From NCBI GenBank assembly GCA_903851035.1, contig CAINND010000093.1, forward strand, positions 1 through 64,000: a DNA stretch of 64,000 nt. Direction: 5' to 3'. The stretch comes from an uncultured Acidobacteriota bacterium. GTDB taxonomy: Bacteria > Acidobacteriota > Terriglobia > Terriglobales > Acidobacteriaceae. Of this stretch, positions 26,427 through 64,000 are shown piece by piece. Within the stretch, counting starts at the first letter, position 1. Every line of letters starts with the position of its first letter. Both the position numbers and the translations under genes were made by a program. Below the pieces are notes generated by a model. That model saw nothing but the letters and a program-made list of their open reading frames with translations, was not told the origin of the DNA and did no database searches.

Positions 26427-26674
26427 AGGGCTACCCGCCCCGTAGCGGTGTTGAACCGGCGGCTATTATCTATCCCGCCCACGACAATGATCTTCAATGC
26501 CACGCTGCGTCATTATACGGGAGCGGTTTCCCTCGCAAGCGATTTTCCTCCGGCGAGTTGCCGTGGCCGGTGACCTCGGTAACTTTTCCCCGGCGGCGGT
26601 CGGTGGTGCGCCGGGCGTGCTTATTCAAATTTGCTGTGTGGCGTATTTTGGACTCACCTGCCAAGCCGCGTTTC

Positions 26675-26690
26675 TGGCAAACTGTTCGCT
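26675..26690 (+). promoter_or_regulatory. Candidate sigma54 promoter at the exosortase gene
   Basis: The sequence TGGCAA, five bases, TCGCT keeps the invariant GG and GC pairs ten bases apart and shares CTG in the spacer with the strong element at 6327. By the usual rule transcription would start near 26701, that is, at or just inside the assigned ATG (26698). Either the true start codon is further in or the match is chance. Confidence 0.35.
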
Positions 26691-26697
26691 GCATCTT

Positions 26698-27612
26698 ATG
26701 CCGGAGCTGCTTCACACCCCGACCGATGGCCCGCCGGAAGCTTCGGCCCCGCTTCGCCTGCTTACCTGGCGGCTGCTGATGCTGGTGGGCTGCCTGCTGC
26801 TGGCCTACGCTCCGGTGCTGGCGCACCTGGTCCGCCAGTGGTCGGATGAGCCGGACTACTCGCATGGCTTCATCGTGCCCATCTTTGCCGCCTGGGTGCT
26901 GTGGGAGCGCCGCGAAGAACTGCGCAACATTGCTCCGCGTCCGCACTGGGCTGGTTTGCCAATCATTGTTTGTTCGCTGGCGCTGCTGGTGCTGGGATCC
27001 TTTGGCGCCGAACTCTTCCTGCAGCGCATCTCGCTGCCGCTGCTGCTGGCCGGGCTGGTTGTCTGGTTCCGAGGCTGGCCTACATTGCGGGCCTCGGCCT
27101 TTCCGCTGCTGGTCTTGCTGCTGGCCATCCCGTTTCCCGGCGTCATCTACTTCCAGATCGTCTTCCCCTTGCAGATTCTTGCCTCGCGCCTGGCGACATG
27201 GATTTTGCACACCATCGATCTTTTCCCCGTGCTGCGTGAGGGCAACGTCATCGTGCTCAGCAGCACGCGGCTGGAGGTGGCGGAGGCGTGCAGCGGCGTG
27301 CGTTCGCTGCTCAGCCTGCTGACCATCGCCGTCATATACTCCTATGTGGCGGAGCGCCGTGTGCTGGTGCGCTGGCTGCTCTGCCTGCTGGTGGTGCCCA
27401 TCGCCATTGCCGGCAACGCGGGTCGCGTGGTCTTTGCCGCCTTTTCCGCCGAGATGGCTGGCGCCAACGCCGTGGAAGGCTGGGGACACTTCCTCAGCGG
27501 CATCTTCCTCTTCTTCATCTCCACCTTGCTCATGGTGTTGGGCCATGTACTGATTCTTGCCCTTGGTCGTCGCCTGGGCTGGGTGCATGCCAATGCGGGA
27601 GGCGACCAGTGA
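26698..27612 (+). CDS. xrt: Exosortase (EpsH/XrtA-type transpeptidase)
   Basis: The 304-residue integral membrane protein has about eight helices and the exosortase catalytic triad: C198 in EACSGVRSL, R243 in NAGRVV, and H264 in GWGHFLSG. It cuts PEP-CTERM tails and is thought to attach the proteins to the envelope polysaccharide. Targets in this window are the proteins at 3089 and 30803. The start ATG at 26698 was chosen because the upstream extension reads as unrelated sequence; no Shine-Dalgarno is visible. It overlaps the EpsI gene by GTGA. I cannot decide between the XrtA subfamily and a related one from motifs alone. Confidence 0.92.
   Translation: MPELLHTPTDGPPEASAPLRLLTWRLLMLVGCLLLAYAPVLAHLVRQWSDEPDYSHGFIVPIFAAWVLWERREELRNIAPRPHWAGLPIIVCSLALLVLGSFGAELFLQRISLPLLLAGLVVWFRGWPTLRASAFPLLVLLLAIPFPGVIYFQIVFPLQILASRLATWILHTIDLFPVLREGNVIVLSSTRLEVAEACSGVRSLLSLLTIAVIYSYVAERRVLVRWLLCLLVVPIAIAGNAGRVVFAAFSAEMAGANAVEGWGHFLSGIFLFFISTLLMVLGHVLILALGRRLGWVHANAGGDQ

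Positions 27613-37239: not shown

Positions 37240-37243
<4 letters not shown>
36476..37243 (-). CDS. Integral membrane protein, third gene of the alpha-2-macroglobulin operon
   Basis: The 255-residue protein has six or so hydrophobic helices (for example MLQLFGTLLLLACMYWWLS and VTMWVLLPSLMLPVGSLVA) and no recognised domain. ATGA overlap with the alpha-2-macroglobulin stop shows translational coupling, which argues for a shared envelope function, perhaps as an anchor or export partner. The ATG at 37243 starts MSTERTGMYRFAA; a longer frame inside the upstream gene was rejected. Confidence 0.6.
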
Positions 37244-41897
<4,654 letters not shown>

Positions 41898-41898
<1 letters not shown>

Positions 41899-42698
41899 CA
41901 GTCTGTTCCCCGAAGTATGTTCCATCGATAAACGCCAATGAATGAGCGATTCTGCGGCAAAGGCCGCCACCGCGCATCCGGATAGGACAAAAGCTCGCGC
42001 AAACTCGGCCGCCGAACCTCGCCCGCGCCATCCCCGATCGGCCCCGTGTGATAAACCACCAGCGGTTCATCTGTGCCATCAATCTGGCTGCGTTCCAGGT
42101 AGATCATGGCGTGGAATGGCGACTGCTGCGATGACTGGCGAAAGAACAAAACGTCACCCATGCGAGCGTCCTCGACACGCCGTGAAACGAAATGCATATT
42201 AAACTGGCGCAACGAGTCGGCGTCGGCAAACTCCATGTAGCTTCCGTCGTGCAGATCGCCTTCGGCATAGGCGCCGCCCCGGGTGCGAAACATGGCCGCG
42301 CCCACCGGTGTATGCGGGTACTGGTACTGGTGCACCTCTGGGATGGAGGGCAGCCGCGGCAGATTCAGATCGGCGGCCCATCGTCCATCATGCTTGCGCA
42401 AGGCCTCCCGGCCGGCAAAGCGAACCAGCGCGGCACAGTCGCCCACTTCGCCACTGACCTTCGAGGGTGAGAAGTACTGCGACTCCGCAAGAAATGCGAA
42501 CCACCGGCGAAATGCCTCTGCATCGGACGGGTCGCTCAGTCGCAGAAAGTCCGGTGTGCCATCCTCATAGCTGTCTATGGTCGAAAGGGAAGAGCTCGCT
42601 GTCAAAGTCCGTGGCTTACTTGCGGAGGCAGTCGAACTTGCAGGTCGGCAGGCCAGTGAAGGCACGAGGAGGCAGAGGCACAATGCGACTGCTGTCAT
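41898..42698 (-). CDS. DUF1175 protein (YfaT-like), alpha-2-macroglobulin partner
   Basis: The 266-residue exported protein has a signal segment, then the family core with a Cys in EVGDCAALVRFAGREAL and a His in SPFHAMIYL. This arrangement resembles papain-like NlpC/P60 folds. DUF1175 genes flank alpha-2-macroglobulin genes in many Proteobacteria, so a role in processing or housing the macroglobulin is likely. ATG 42698 is preferred because it starts directly with the hydrophobic signal; a GTG at 42758 would add 20 residues of poor quality. Confidence 0.75.
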
Positions 42699-53291: not shown

Positions 53292-54254
53292 ATGTTCACA
53301 GACACTGATGACACCCGTGCGTCGCTGGAGGAAGTCGGATACTTCACGACTCGGGAAGTAGCCAACACGATCTACCTGGCCGCGCAGCTTGACCGGCCCA
53401 TCCTGCTGGAAGGCCCCGCCGGCGCCGGCAAGACCGAGATGGCCCTGGCGATCAAACGCGCCACGGGCATGAAGCTCATACGGCTCCAGTGCTACGAAGG
53501 CCTCACGGACAAGGAGGCGATTGGAAGCTTCAGCGATGAGTTGCGGCAACTCTATGTGCGCTTTCATGATGGGACCTTCGACGAAGCCGCCAAGAGGGTC
53601 TCGGATCGATCCTTCTTCCTGGCCGGACCGCTCTTGAGTGCGCTGGAGACGCCGGCTCGCTGCATTCTGCTGGTCGATGAGATCGACAAGATCAGCCACG
53701 CCTTCGAGGCCCAGCTGCTTGAGTTCCTCGGCGAATGGCAGCTGACGATTCCCGGACTCGGCGAGGTCAAGGCACATCAACCGCCCTTCACCATCGTTAC
53801 GGCCAACGACGAGCGACAGCTGGGATATCCTCTTCTGCGGCGCTGCGCCCGCATCTACATCAATCATCCGACGCCGGAGCAGGAAGCGGCCATTGTTGCG
53901 AGCCGGACTCCCGATTGCTCGAAGGCAATCCACTACTTCATCGCTGGCTTCGCCAAGACACTCCGGGCCTTCAAGATGGAAAAGCCCCCATCCATCTCCG
54001 AGATGATCACCCTCGCGCTGGCGCTCGACAAACTGAACCTGAAAGAGATCCGGGACGACCACAAGTCGGTTATTCTGCCGTTCATCGCCAAGACAGAGAA
54101 GGATCGGGCGAGTCTGCTTGTCTCTGGCCGCTTCGAGAGCTTCATGGACAACGCTCGCATCATCGCGGACGAAATGAGCCGGCACGACGTACTGGTTCCT
54201 GAGAGCGTTCCCGAGCCCGATTCGGTGATGCCACTGGAGGTTGCGGCGCAATGA
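53292..54254 (+). CDS. MoxR-family AAA+ ATPase in the conjugation block
   Basis: The 320-residue ATPase has Walker A EGPAGAGKT, Walker B ILLVDEIDK and a sensor TANDERQLG. It is of the MoxR/CbbQ/NorQ type, which remodels metal-dependent proteins with a VWA-domain partner. No VWA gene is visible here. It overlaps the transglycosylase gene by ATGA, so it belongs to the transfer operon. A MoxR ATPase at the head of a T4SS block is unusual. The transcript may be near-leaderless because the operator touches the start codon. Confidence 0.8.
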   Translation: MFTDTDDTRASLEEVGYFTTREVANTIYLAAQLDRPILLEGPAGAGKTEMALAIKRATGMKLIRLQCYEGLTDKEAIGSFSDELRQLYVRFHDGTFDEAAKRVSDRSFFLAGPLLSALETPARCILLVDEIDKISHAFEAQLLEFLGEWQLTIPGLGEVKAHQPPFTIVTANDERQLGYPLLRRCARIYINHPTPEQEAAIVASRTPDCSKAIHYFIAGFAKTLRAFKMEKPPSISEMITLALALDKLNLKEIRDDHKSVILPFIAKTEKDRASLLVSGRFESFMDNARIIADEMSRHDVLVPESVPEPDSVMPLEVAAQ

Positions 54255-54760
54255 TCCGGTTCTGCTCAGAACTGTTCTTGGGGCTGTCCTTGGCTCTTTC
54301 CGCAGCGGCAGGCACGTTGCCGCAGAGTGGCCACGACGAAGCGGTGTACTACGCCGACGCGTACGCCGCCCACTATCAGATTCCCCGAGAGCTTATTCAC
54401 GCGATCATCACCCAGGAGTCTGGCTGGAACCCTCGGGCAATCTCCCCCAAAGGTGCCATGGGACTCATGCAGCTCATGCCAGCCACAGCGGCGGAGTATG
54501 GCGTGCAAAATCCCTTTGGCCTCTCGGAAAACCTCTCCGGCGGGGTTCGATACCTAGCCGATCTGATGCAGCAGTTCCACGGAGACTTTCGTCTGGTGTT
54601 GGCGGCATATTACCGGGGTAGCCGTCCAATCCTTCGCTGCGGTCTCCACTACTCGGGCGCCGATGTGCTTGCCTACGTTGCTTCCGTTCGGCGCCTCTAC
54701 CTTGCGGAGCTCGCCCTCCGCAACACACCCCCGAATCCCGCCTATGGAGGCAATCAATAG
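54251..54760 (+). CDS. virB1: VirB1-like lytic transglycosylase
   Basis: The 169-residue exported enzyme has the SLT signature: a catalytic Glu in ITQESGWNPRAISPKGAMGLMQLMPATA. It opens peptidoglycan so the conjugation apparatus can cross the periplasm. It follows the MoxR gene and is followed directly by the VirB9-like gene (stop and start share one base). A short Cys-containing region near the C-terminus (ILRCGLHYSGAD) is not in the core family. Confidence 0.85.
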   Translation: MIRFCSELFLGLSLALSAAAGTLPQSGHDEAVYYADAYAAHYQIPRELIHAIITQESGWNPRAISPKGAMGLMQLMPATAAEYGVQNPFGLSENLSGGVRYLADLMQQFHGDFRLVLAAYYRGSRPILRCGLHYSGADVLAYVASVRRLYLAELALRNTPPNPAYGGNQ

Positions 54761-55891: not shown

Positions 55892-57217
55892 ATGACCCAG
55901 ACGACTCCAGAACAACCGACGCTCGCTACTCCACAGAACGAAAAGGAAGCTACCCCATTCACGCGGCCAGCCAAGAAGGGCCACGTTCCGGCAGGGTTGG
56001 GCACCCTGATCATCGTTAGCCTCATACTACTCATGGCGTTGTTGGGCGCTGTTCTCGTCTTCTCTCACAAGCAGGAGCCCAAGCAACCCCATGACCAGGC
56101 TTCAAAGCGCGCCCCCGCACAACAGCACGCGCCGGTGGTCAAACAGGTGACGCCCACCGACGAGTACAGCACTCCGAACGCGGCGGCGAATGACGATGCT
56201 GACAACATGACGCCGGGCGCAATTCTGGCGACCAAGAATGCCCTGGAAGCGCAGAAACGACATGCGAAAGAGGCGGAGGAAGCCTCAAAGCAAAATGGCG
56301 CTGGGACTGGCAGTGCCAAACAGCCCCAGGGGGCTTCTGGTTCAACGGCACAAGGCTCGAAACAACCGACTGCCCTGCCGAAGACGCTAGGTTCCATCCC
56401 CCCCTTCCAGCCGCCGCCATTCAACGGAGCCGCAGCCAATCAACCGGGCAGTGGCTTTGGATCCGCGCCATTCCAATCCGGATCCTCCTATAGCGAGTCA
56501 TTGCGGGCGTGGAATGAGCAGGTCACCAAGTCGCGCATCGTCTTCGCGCGCAAGAGCGTGTCTGCCGTGGTCGATGCCGCACAGACTCTGGGACCGGCGA
56601 TTACGAACTTTGGACTGGAACCCGGCTTTCACGTGGCCGCCCGGCTGGAAGCTTCCGCGACCACCGCGGTCGCAGCTCCTGTCACTGCCGTGATCGAGTA
56701 CAACTACGAGCGCAATGGGCAGATCGTCCTGCCGGCGGGAAGCCGCGCGATCGGCCGGATCAACAGCGCCGATCCGCACGGCAATATGGCAATCGCATTC
56801 GAGTCCATTCTCTTGCCGAACGGCTCCACCGTGCCGATCAGTGCCGTCGCAGTCGATACGAATCTGCGGGTGCTGAAGGGGCAGGTGACCGGAAGCAGCC
56901 GCGGCAAGGCCATGCTCGTCGCCACCCTGTCCGGGATTGGACAGACCACGGCGATGATGCTGGGAAACAACTCCAGCGCGGCGCTCAGTGGACAGGACAT
57001 GATACGGTCGCAGCTCTCCCAGAACATGGGAAACACCGCCGACACCCAGATTGCCAAGATGATCTCGAACGAGAGGATCGTGGTGACGCTGGCTGCAGGA
57101 ACCGAATTCTATCTGGTGTTTACCAAGGCGGCGCTGCCGCAGAGCACATCGCAACCGTCGTCGTTGGTCTCCAGCGTCGGGCACCCAACGATTTCTTCTT
57201 CGTCGTCCGAACGATAG
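55892..57217 (+). CDS. VirB10/TrbI-like T4SS core protein
   Basis: The 441-residue protein has a short cytoplasmic part, one membrane span (LGTLIIVSLILLMALLGAVLVF, about residue 40), a long Pro/Gln/Ala-rich periplasmic region and a C-terminal TrbI domain: IEYNYERNGQIVLPAGSRAIGRI, then IAFESILLPNGSTVPISAVAVD. It links the inner membrane to the outer-membrane pore. AGGAGG lies eight bases before the ATG. Confidence 0.85.
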   Translation: MTQTTPEQPTLATPQNEKEATPFTRPAKKGHVPAGLGTLIIVSLILLMALLGAVLVFSHKQEPKQPHDQASKRAPAQQHAPVVKQVTPTDEYSTPNAAANDDADNMTPGAILATKNALEAQKRHAKEAEEASKQNGAGTGSAKQPQGASGSTAQGSKQPTALPKTLGSIPPFQPPPFNGAAANQPGSGFGSAPFQSGSSYSESLRAWNEQVTKSRIVFARKSVSAVVDAAQTLGPAITNFGLEPGFHVAARLEASATTAVAAPVTAVIEYNYERNGQIVLPAGSRAIGRINSADPHGNMAIAFESILLPNGSTVPISAVAVDTNLRVLKGQVTGSSRGKAMLVATLSGIGQTTAMMLGNNSSAALSGQDMIRSQLSQNMGNTADTQIAKMISNERIVVTLAAGTEFYLVFTKAALPQSTSQPSSLVSSVGHPTISSSSSER

Positions 57218-61067: not shown

Positions 61068-61511
61068 ATGAACTCGAATCGCACGCGCATCAAGTGCCGC
61101 TACGGAAGGCTTCTGGCGGTAGTCTCTCTCTTCACCCTTTTGCTGTTCCCCGTCATGGGCATGGCCCAAAACCTCGGCAAATCACCTGCGGTTGGCCAGG
61201 CGGTGCAGGGTCAGCAGGCGACCCAGGTTGAGGGCACGGTGCTCAACGCCGTCAACTGGATATGCAATGTGATTTGCCCGGTGATCGCGGCCGGTTGCTT
61301 TGTCGCCGCCGCCTTCAAGTACCAGGCAAACCGGCCATACATGAGCAGTATAGTGGGCGGCGGGATATTCCTCGCGGTTTCGGCCGTCACGCGGTTGATC
61401 GAGTACTTCATCGCACAAGGCCAACAGGTCGGGGGTAGCCTTCACCAACTCCCCATCTTCACGAATCATCCCGCGGTTGCCGTGCTGCACCACTTCGTGA
61501 GGAATGTTTAA
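61068..61511 (+). CDS. VirB2/TrbC-like pilin with one unit
   Basis: The 147-residue protein has a signal peptide (VVSLFTLLLFPVMGMAQ) and a pilin-like unit of two membrane helices around residues 59-123: NWICNVICPVIAAGCFVAAAFKYQ, a short polar turn, then GGIFLAVSAVTRLIEYFIAQGQQVGG. This matches VirB2/TrbC topology. The unit recurs twice in the protein at 62477. ATG 61068 is chosen because ACGGAGG lies five bases upstream. Confidence 0.7.
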   Translation: MNSNRTRIKCRYGRLLAVVSLFTLLLFPVMGMAQNLGKSPAVGQAVQGQQATQVEGTVLNAVNWICNVICPVIAAGCFVAAAFKYQANRPYMSSIVGGGIFLAVSAVTRLIEYFIAQGQQVGGSLHQLPIFTNHPAVAVLHHFVRNV

Positions 61512-62236
61512 TGACCACCGCTCTGCCGGATTTTGTGTCGGAGATCTCCGGCATGCTGGTGTCTCTTCTTCCAGTTGCCGCCCTCGGGTCCATTGTGCTC
61601 GCGGGTTTGCGACTGCGCGGCGAAGGAGGCATCAATTACGACGCCGGTGGGGGTTTCTTCAAGTGGCTGTTCTGGGGAGCGCTCCTGCTGACCCTGCCCG
61701 CAATCTTTTCTGCGACGGTTCCTGGACTTTTCTCTGGGGGGCCAGCTCCCGTTCCGCCTTCCGGAGCTGGGACGGGGACGTTCGGTTCCGTTGCGACAAG
61801 TCTCACGACGGGAATCACGAGCTTCGTCAACAATATCCTCGTCGGACGCATTGTGCCATTGATGGCGGCTGCCCTGTGTTTCAAGGCGATTCTTGATAGT
61901 TCCGAGGGGCATTCGCCGTTGCCGTCGATTATCTCGGCGCTATTTGTGCTGGGTTCCCAGGCATTCTGGACTCTTGCGAAGACCTGGTCCACCTCTTCCA
62001 GCAGTACAACTTCCACCGTAGCGTTCGCGTCCGCTGACGTCCTCGACAGCATGTTCAACTACCTGGCCATGACGATCAGCCCGTATGTAGCAGTCCTGTG
62101 CTTCGCAGGAGCGGCGATCAACTACCAACGCTCAAAGCCGTGGGGCGTAGTGGCCCTCTCTGGACTCGCATTTCTGAGTTTCAGCGGATTGTGGTCACTT
62201 GTCACGGGTTGGATGGGGGTCACAATCACATGGTAG
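61511..62236 (+). CDS. Polytopic T4SS membrane protein
   Basis: The 241-residue protein has about six membrane helices and a Gly/Pro/Ser-rich periplasmic loop near residue 80. It may correspond to VirB6 in function, but no sequence signature confirms this. Its start shares one base with the pilin stop, and its end overlaps the next gene by seven bases, so the block is tightly coupled. Confidence 0.5.
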   Translation: MTTALPDFVSEISGMLVSLLPVAALGSIVLAGLRLRGEGGINYDAGGGFFKWLFWGALLLTLPAIFSATVPGLFSGGPAPVPPSGAGTGTFGSVATSLTTGITSFVNNILVGRIVPLMAAALCFKAILDSSEGHSPLPSIISALFVLGSQAFWTLAKTWSTSSSSTTSTVAFASADVLDSMFNYLAMTISPYVAVLCFAGAAINYQRSKPWGVVALSGLAFLSFSGLWSLVTGWMGVTITW

Positions 62237-62493
62237 AAAACTCCCTTCTTATCAAACTGCGCCAGTTCGTCATCTTGGCGGTTCTCCTAGCCGCCGCGGC
62301 GATTGCCGTTGCGGTGCTGGCGCGTTTCCGGATGGGCCTCATAGTGCTTAGGGCTGGGTTTGCGGTGTTCAACGTTCTTTCGTTTTTCTATTGCCTATCG
62401 CTGGTCGGGCAAAAAGCGTGGGAAACCAGCGCCCGAATCGCGAACGCATTTCGCCACCCGGCCAAGGAGTCAAGCAATGTCGAGTGCAACTGA
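62230..62493 (+). CDS. Small two-span membrane protein of the T4SS block
   Basis: The 87-residue protein has two adjacent hydrophobic helices (LRQFVILAVLLAAAAIAVAVLA and GLIVLRAGFAVFNVLSFFYCLSLV) and a charged C-terminus. It overlaps both neighbouring genes. No family is recognised; a pilin-like or scaffold role is possible. Confidence 0.5.
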   Translation: MVENSLLIKLRQFVILAVLLAAAAIAVAVLARFRMGLIVLRAGFAVFNVLSFFYCLSLVGQKAWETSARIANAFRHPAKESSNVECN

Positions 62494-62947
62494 TCCGGCA
62501 CAGGCAATCTTGGCGATGGTCAACTGGCTTGGCCTGATCGTGATGCCGGTCATGGCGGCCTTGTTCCTTGCCATCGGAGTTTACAAGTACTCCAAAGGCG
62601 AGAGCATGGAACGCTCGGTGATCGGAGTCATGGTTGCCATCAGCATCTCCGGCATCACCCGCCTTGCGGAGTACTTCGTCGCAACGAGTGCCGGAAATTC
62701 GATGGTCACCGACACCTACTCCAATGCACTTCTGAACCTGACAAATTGGGTTGCCAACGTGATCCTGCCGGTCTACGCAGCGATAGAGGTAGTGCGAGCC
62801 GGAATCTCGTTTGAAGACCTCACCAGCATGCGCACCGATCTCAGACCAGTCAAACACTTTGCCACCGCGGTGATGTGCTGCGCGGTCTCGGCAATCATGC
62901 GGCTGATCGAGTATTGGGTCGCCAACGGCCAGCAGATTGGGAGCTAA
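62477..62947 (+). CDS. Double VirB2-like pilin (two fused units)
   Basis: The 156-residue protein carries two copies of the unit seen in the pilin at 61068. Residues 13-69 run MVNWLGLIVMPVMAALF to ISGITRLAEYFVA; residues 86-156 run LTNWVANVILPVYAA to VSAIMRLIEYWVANGQQIGS. No clear signal peptide is present. A fused pilin dimer is not the usual VirB2 form. The gene overlaps the preceding one by 17 bases and is followed by VirB3. Confidence 0.65.
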   Translation: MSSATDPAQAILAMVNWLGLIVMPVMAALFLAIGVYKYSKGESMERSVIGVMVAISISGITRLAEYFVATSAGNSMVTDTYSNALLNLTNWVANVILPVYAAIEVVRAGISFEDLTSMRTDLRPVKHFATAVMCCAVSAIMRLIEYWVANGQQIGS

Positions 62948-62951
62948 TCGA

Positions 62952-63296
62952 ATGTCATTGCAAGTTTCACCGGTATCGCGCAACCTGCACAATCCGGTCT
63001 ACCTCATGGGCCTCGAAATCGAGGACATGATGATCATCGGCATCGTCTGCATCGTGGCGCTCATGGGCGGCCAGTTCCTCTTCCCGGACCGCTATCTCGT
63101 ATTTCTTCCCCTCAACTGGGCGCTGATGTTGCTGGTTCTGATTCTTGGGGTGCCCTCACTGTCCATCTTCAAGTACGGCAAACCACGCGGCTATATGAAG
63201 GACCTGATTGCGTGGTACACGAAGCCGCGCGCGTATGCAGCGTGCGAGCGCGATGAACAATTCCCCGCTCAATACCTGTTCGAGGAGGAGGACTGA
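62952..63296 (+). CDS. virB3: VirB3-like T4SS protein
   Basis: The 114-residue protein has the VirB3 layout: a short N-terminus (VSRNLHNPVYLMGLEIEDMM), two adjacent membrane helices and a charged cytoplasmic tail. VirB3 pairs with the VirB4 ATPase. Its stop overlaps the VirB4 start by one base (TGATG), a common coupling. Confidence 0.75.
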   Translation: MSLQVSPVSRNLHNPVYLMGLEIEDMMIIGIVCIVALMGGQFLFPDRYLVFLPLNWALMLLVLILGVPSLSIFKYGKPRGYMKDLIAWYTKPRAYAACERDEQFPAQYLFEEED

Positions 63297-64000
63297 TGCC
63301 AACTACAACCGCAGAACACAACCGTTCTCTTGTCACTCCGGGAATTTACTCGCTGCTTCCCATCCGCGATTTTCTTCCAGGAGCACTGACAGCTGCCGAT
63401 GGGGTGATGGTCCGAACCGATGGATGCTATGTAGCAGGCTTCCATCTTGGCGGCTCACTGACGTACTTTGGCGACGACGCCGCGATGAACGAAATGAAGG
63501 GTCGAGTCGAGGCCCTGCTTCGCACTGTTCCCGAAGAGAGCATGCGCGTCCAGTTCCGCTATGAGGTGGTTGAGAACGCGAACGGTCTCATCGATCGCTA
63601 CGAAGCGCTGCAACGCACGGAGTCCGATGTTGCGCGACGCATGGATGCCATTCGCATTGAAGGCTGGAGAAAAGAAGAAGAGCACAGCGAATTCCTGACG
63701 CGCCTGGCCGCAGTGTATTTCATCTGGGATCCCGCGCTCCACGAGCGCCTGAATCGCACTACAACCAGCGTGCTGGCCAGCCACAAAGATGACTCAAGAG
63801 CACAGGCTGTGCAGCCGGCGGAGATTGAGCCGAGCGGCGGATTTTCTGGTTCTATCAAACGCCTCTTCAAGAAAACTACGGCACCGGTGTCGGCCGAGTC
63901 GCAAGCTCAGATCGGCAAGAAAAAACACCTCTCCATTGTCACTCAGTTTGAGAGCTTCCTCCGCGGCATTGAGTCGTCCTTGAAGACCGCGGGGTTGAAT
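63296..64000 (+). CDS. virB4: VirB4-like T4SS ATPase (N-terminal part, cut by window edge)
   Basis: The frame is open from ATG 63296 to the window end (235 residues). It reads SLVTPGIYSLLPIRDFLPGA, then FHLGGSLTYFGDD and LRTVPEESMRVQFRYEVV, with the N-terminal helical region typical of VirB4/TraC. The Walker motifs lie beyond the window. Position right after VirB3 supports the call. Confidence 0.75.
   Translation, partial: MPTTTAEHNRSLVTPGIYSLLPIRDFLPGALTAADGVMVRTDGCYVAGFHLGGSLTYFGDDAAMNEMKGRVEALLRTVPEESMRVQFRYEVVENANGLIDRYEALQRTESDVARRMDAIRIEGWRKEEEHSEFLTRLAAVYFIWDPALHERLNRTTTSVLASHKDDSRAQAVQPAEIEPSGGFSGSIKRLFKKTTAPVSAESQAQIGKKKHLSIVTQFESFLRGIESSLKTAGLN

Follow-up and report, generated by a model that had tools for sequence, protein, structure and literature searches.

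The 64,000-nucleotide stretch of acidobacterial DNA analyzed here (the window) carries three adjoining genes that appear, from their sequences, to encode six related membrane hairpins, distributed as one, three and two units, directly 5' of virB3 and virB4, the first unit of the triple protein being only a probable member of the set. Hereafter, the single-unit, triple-unit and double-unit proteins are designated S, P and D, and their units S, P1 to P3, and D1 and D2. The constancy of this 1+3+2 set across a bacterial class suggests that the fused copies belong to the base of the pilus as a constant component; the transfer machines that carry the set form a family found in soil acidobacteria. 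In the literature searched, mostly outside subscription journals, no description of the triple protein or of the constant 1+3+2 arrangement was found.

Related hairpins in three adjoining genes

S (61068..61511, plus strand like all genes of the set, 147 aa) is a pilin-like protein with one hairpin (unit S, 61239..61436), while D (62477..62947, 156 aa) has four helices, no signal peptide and two units, D1 (62492..62692) and D2 (62711..62944). The proposal of the earlier note that the unit occurs once in the first protein and twice in the second is borne out by profile comparisons, by shuffles and by the identities within the window (20/59 for S-D1, 29/72 for S-D2 and 19/68 for D1-D2), for each of which none of 1000 shuffles preserving hydrophobicity class scored as high. 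When family profiles of 27-31 relatives are compared, hhalign returns 99.4% for S-D1 and 99.5% for both S-D2 and D1-D2, against at most 3.5% for VirB3, a control hairpin from the same operon, compared with the units. Moreover, the S profile scores 56.9 bits on D1 and 60.8 bits on D2, with null maxima of 19.5 and 18.1 and none of 2000 hydrophobicity-preserving shuffles equal to the score of S with either half of D; VirB3, VirB6 and a small two-transmembrane protein stay at noise level in this scoring.

Regarding P (61511..62236, 241 aa, six helices and no signal peptide), the ATG of which overlaps the stop codon of S, the similar N-terminal hydrophobic pattern reported in the earlier note understated the likeness, the protein consisting of three hairpins. 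Relatedness to the S and D units is clearest for the C-terminal hairpin and weakest for the N-terminal one. Indeed, P3 (62027..62218) reaches hhalign 98.7% with S and 98.0% with D1, P2 (61790..61990) 95.6% and 89.7%, respectively, and P1 (61514..61729), the most diverged, 59.7% with S only. Scored with the S profile, P3 and P2 beat every shuffle null. By these comparisons P3 may be regarded as a clear and P2 as a good member of the S/D kind; P1 exceeds its null narrowly with the S profile and is missed by the other profiles, so that its assignment as a hairpin unit of this kind is probable, not proven. In addition, the whole of D aligns with the P2-P3 tandem at hhalign 96.8% across 121 columns. 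In AlphaFold models, both of medium confidence, D folds into four helices (mean pLDDT 74.7) and P into six (mean pLDDT 66.0); being of single chains, these models do not bear on contacts between S, P and D. The D model, compared using Foldseek and VIA-align 2, retrieved generic helical bundles only, with no VirB2-type pilus among the matches, an outcome that is uninformative either way.

That the repeats are unrelated hydrophobic hairpins, alike through composition, would fit the facts that every unit is a membrane hairpin and that only one profile detects P1 reliably. However, the scores of S, D1, D2 and P3 lie beyond both the class-preserving shuffles and the control hairpins of the same operon, and P2 is backed by profile-profile comparison and by most profiles. 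This explanation is thus ruled out for four of the units, S, D1, D2 and P3, and for P2 it is very improbable; taken as a whole, it is hardly credible. The absence of a profile match, which the earlier note had named as the sign of unrelated segments, is excluded by the 57 and 61 bits obtained against null maxima below 20.

Two further candidates were considered and rejected. P is not a VirB6, since a separate TrbL/VirB6 gene lies downstream in the locus and P matches the pilin-like units. Likewise, the small two-transmembrane protein encoded between P and D (62230..62493, plus strand, 87 aa) is not a seventh unit, being unrelated to the units; of 64 relative loci, only 7 have an extra gene at this position.

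The type IV secretion locus and its candidate pilin

Judging from family matches, the locus is a type IV secretion apparatus for the transfer of DNA or protein, and the T4SS context assigned earlier to the pilin genes is upheld by these VirB/VirD4-type matches. D is followed by a VirB3-like gene (62952..63296, plus strand; below the Pfam cut-off, and located after D in relatives too) and by the gene of a 929-aa VirB4-type ATPase (63296..64000, plus strand), which runs past the window end (63296-66085 on the contig). The same T4SS includes a VirB1-type lytic transglycosylase (54251..54760, plus strand), VirB10/TrbI (55892..57217, plus strand), VirB6/TrbL, VirB8, a VirB9-like protein and VirD4, the families matched being TraG P-loop, TrbL, VirB8, CagX (E 8e-7, below cut-off), TrbI and T4SS-DNA_transf. 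The locus thereby holds VirB4, VirB6, VirB8, VirB9, VirB10 and VirD4, the set by which a P-type (VirB/Trb-like) T4SS is recognized. No VirB11 ATPase is encoded on the contig (C93), T2SSE-family matches being located on other contigs (C121, C61 and C114), and the genome of the window has no PF03432 relaxase; DNA transfer is therefore not established.

The surroundings of these genes hold several other features. A MoxR-like AAA ATPase gene (53292-54254) lies immediately 5' of the VirB1 gene and is also found in loci L021 and L022, and two adjoining VirB5-like secreted proteins occur instead of one (L002:6082-7750 in the locus of the window), as they do in relatives. Just beyond the window, inside the T4SS operon and flanked by virB8 and a second virB9-like gene, an 826-aa protein (C93:70091-72571; L002:10091-12571) carries NGGDFDGDMICVID, where it has a weak Pfam RdRP match (E 0.075), together with a match to PHROG 34895 (E 2e-9); its relatives in loci L019, L020 and L022 (31-37% identity) share the motif GGD[FY]DFD, and from its sequence it looks like a relative of two-barrel RNA polymerases. 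Further downstream on the contig (about 90-94.4 kb; L179:11993-16444), genes for a TOTE-type archaeo-eukaryotic primase, an SSB and a Rad52-like protein suggest a mobile element. The window also encodes a bacterial alpha-2-macroglobulin of 1575 aa (37240-41970, minus strand) and an exosortase of the EpsH family (26497-27612).

S had been described as VirB2-like, which holds for its position and architecture and not for membership of the TrbC/VirB2 sequence family. Like TrbC/VirB2 pilins (PF04956), it has a signal peptide and two helices, its gene is near virB3-virB4 and it is the presumed pilus subunit; unlike them, it lacks a significant sequence match. Indeed, Pfam TrbC scores only 10.7 bits on S of the window (E 0.65; cut-off 27.9) and gives weak matches in 4 of 23 relatives, the best at E 0.02. 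By hhalign against 28 acidobacterial TrbC pilins, the units reach at most 3.3%, that is, no homology, and full-length S reaches 22% over a 13-residue stretch of the signal peptide. Searches of NCBIfam and PHROGs returned nothing relevant to S, P or D, and neither did a sequence search of solved structures with the S and D profiles. TrbC-type pilins are encoded in 59 of 200 genomes of the class to which the window belongs, and several genomes of relatives that bear them have no D match; the genome of the window has no TrbC pilin match, which leaves S as the pilin candidate.

Secretion and topology set S apart from its fused neighbors. As called from the sequence and hydropathy of the S family alignment, a signal peptide spans about residues 1-33 (ending in GMA, before QNLG) and is followed by a conserved secreted N-terminal segment (QNLG..PA...AVQGQ..A), both present in S only and absent from P and D; throughout the S family, an invariant AQNLG region precedes the hairpin. 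S of the window has about 24 residues (61437-61508) beyond the usual C-terminus (SLHQLPIFTNHPAVAVLHHFVRNV), after ...GQQVGG, that the aligned relatives do not have. The hairpin loops of S, D1, D2, P1 and P3 contain about two or more K/R each, while the P2 loop as cut has no positive residue and a K or R just ahead of it; the linkers, N-termini and tails of the three proteins are neutral or negative. By the positive-inside rule, all the hairpins are likely to be the same way round, as in VirB2, with loops cytoplasmic and ends periplasmic, and the units of P and D would be joined on the periplasmic side.

Conservation, age and tail covariation of the fused units

Further double proteins, for which the earlier note had proposed a profile search, do exist. 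In the family to which the window belongs, 72 of 398 genomes have D, and 26 of the 79 genera are represented; D also occurs at 70 loci from named public genomes, the titles of which all give Acidobacteriota lineages (Acidobacteriaceae, Bryobacterales, Acidiferrales and others). Phylum-wide, it was found in 7 of 396 genomes, every one in the class of the window. The order S-P-D-virB3 is seen outright in 54 of these 70 loci; nearly all of the others are either cut off at a contig end or misordered as an artefact of taking ORF starts from stop-to-stop frames. The unit count is just as regular, P being P1-P2-P3 in 62 of 65 P proteins (on other contigs) and D being D1-D2 in 68 of 69 D proteins. Locus L056 (5800-8200), which keeps D and VirB3 with no recognizable S or P and no virB4 immediately after virB3, is probably a decaying T4SS. 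Plasmid records searched with D or a close relative gave no match, and viral contigs one partial match only.

A tree of five unit types (S, D1, D2, P2 and P3) sampled at about 17 loci, with P1 left out, is used only for its main message, the alignment being short and the tree unrooted: the five labels require four changes, the minimum possible, S needing two changes on its own, with support of 93 for D1, 89 for D2 and 100 for P2 and weak support for P3. As the unit types fall on separate branches with the minimum of changes, the duplications are older than the spread of the loci; on this tree the P and D fusions are old, the duplication preceding the family.

It had also been noticed that the end of D2 is the closest match to S. 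The two tails quoted, RLIEYFIAQGQQVGG and RLIEYWVANGQQIGS, are exact in the window, and their likeness extends to a family-wide covariation, locus by locus, of the C-terminal tails of the two units. Over 51 distinct S-D2 pairs, the mean tail score is 31.3 within a locus versus 24.6 between loci, a difference reached in none of 10,000 permutations, and the partial correlation given VirB3 distance is 0.32. In aligned tail columns from 58 loci, S-D2 has a z of 7.2, compared with -0.2 for S-D1, -1.2 for S-P3, 1.5 for D1-D2 and -1.4 for D2-P3. Shared ancestry inflates the S-D2 value, but the other unit pairs, with the same ancestry, show no such signal. Most simply, the covariation would mean that S and D2 touch the same partner with their free ends, or that these ends occupy equivalent places.

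Possible roles of P and D and comparison with known systems

We favor the view that P and D make up a fixed layer in the inner membrane that forms the base, or initiates the growth, of an S filament, a proposal that we consider about evenly poised between right and wrong, and that is close to the assembly seed suggested for D in the earlier note. S would be the pilus subunit: the signal peptide would direct its secretion, after which it would sit in the inner membrane as a hairpin whose two ends face the periplasm. P and D, ancient paralogues with three and two hairpins linked in series through their periplasmic ends, would keep the pilin orientation and, having no signal peptide, are presumed to stay in the inner membrane. 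Together they would form a pre-joined layer at the pilus base, adjoining VirB3, VirB4 and VirB6, upon which S would be recruited and polymerized.

Against a role at the base, the fused D units could be carried into the filament too. P and D would then be minor pilins that leave the membrane with S and enter the pilus as fixed runs of two and three subunits, as their orientation and unit, identical in kind to those of S, their linkers on the side of the pilin ends and the D2 tail, which tracks the S tail as if in equivalent positions, might indicate. Yet P and D have neither the signal peptide nor the conserved secreted segment found in S, and removing a chain of four or six helices from the membrane would presumably cost more than removing two, which makes minor pilins somewhat unlikely. 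For D alone, the earlier suggestion that a fused dimer forces a two-subunit repeat in the pilus is unlikely as stated, D having no signal peptide and the triple protein being an equally constant partner.

Alternatively, P and D might be membrane chaperones or recruiters that act outside the base, mould-like, and pass secreted S to VirB3 or VirB6. Their genes lie between the pilin gene and virB3-virB4, and in the R388 model pilin recruitment takes place near VirB3 and VirB6 (PMC12624023). Such a function would hardly explain the exact, class-wide count of three and two units, and S and D2 are alike in their tails rather than across a general binding surface; we consider this role unlikely. A base or initiation layer is hence preferred over both minor pilins and recruiters.

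The pili of T4SSs are five-fold symmetric, and their growth is believed to take place on VirB6 (PMC12624023). As three and two make five, one P and one D might form a five-hairpin ring matching one layer of the pilus, an asymmetric nucleus with five differing positions; this idea, drawn from arithmetic and from analogy with the type III export gate, is speculative and distinctly doubtful. If true, the P:D ring would fix where the S filament starts and in what register. In the flagellar/type III gate FliP5Q4R1, a helical nucleus in the membrane from which the filament is thought to start, FliR corresponds structurally to one FliP-FliQ unit (PMC7064499); the gate belongs to a different secretion system and the parallel is one of analogy, no homology being claimed.

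The start of a conjugative pilus, and the nature of whatever separates the filament from the platform in the inner membrane, are still unsettled matters. Three and two fused units beside a free pilin, kept since before the class diversified, provide a natural test: as fusion fixes neighbors and counts, removing or splitting P and D would reveal whether a defined nucleus exists.

Several adjoining pilin paralogues are also known from the VirB2 gene arrays of Bartonella, Anaplasma and Patescibacteria, which consist of 2-11 separate genes in variable number (PMC12102498), whereas in the 1+3+2 set the units are fused and their number is constant. The best precedent, by sequence tests, is the TraR/TraQ pair of MPF_I systems (IncI1 R64, ColIb-P9), in which, as with S and D, a secreted single unit stands beside an unsecreted double. 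R64 TraR (134 aa) has a signal peptide and one unit, and TraQ (175 aa) has no signal peptide and, by test, two TraR-type units: Pfam DUF6750, the family of TraR, matches TraQ in two stretches, the TraQ model (conj_TraQ) matches TraR over its first half, and the TraQ halves compared with TraR across nine plasmids give hhalign 96.6% and 93.5%. IncI1 TraQ (R64, L153:16548-17530) thus seems to have arisen by internal duplication of a TraR-type pilin unit. In the part of the published account considered here, TraQ and TraR are called distantly homologous VirB2-family proteins, traQ and traR are both reported indispensable for transfer in R64 and pCTX-M3, and TraQ is presented as a relative of DotE/IcmC in Dot/Icm and given three transmembrane segments, with no mention there of duplication (PMC6112013). 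The acidobacterial locus differs from R64 in gene order and in its triple protein, none being seen beside TraQ and TraR, and its units are unlike theirs in sequence (hhalign at most 31.8%, for TraQ half 1 with P1, and at most 6.1% for the rest), so that a secreted single beside an unsecreted double recurs in a second system with no detectable sequence similarity. R64, with TraQ apparently the double of TraR, is open to the same logic.
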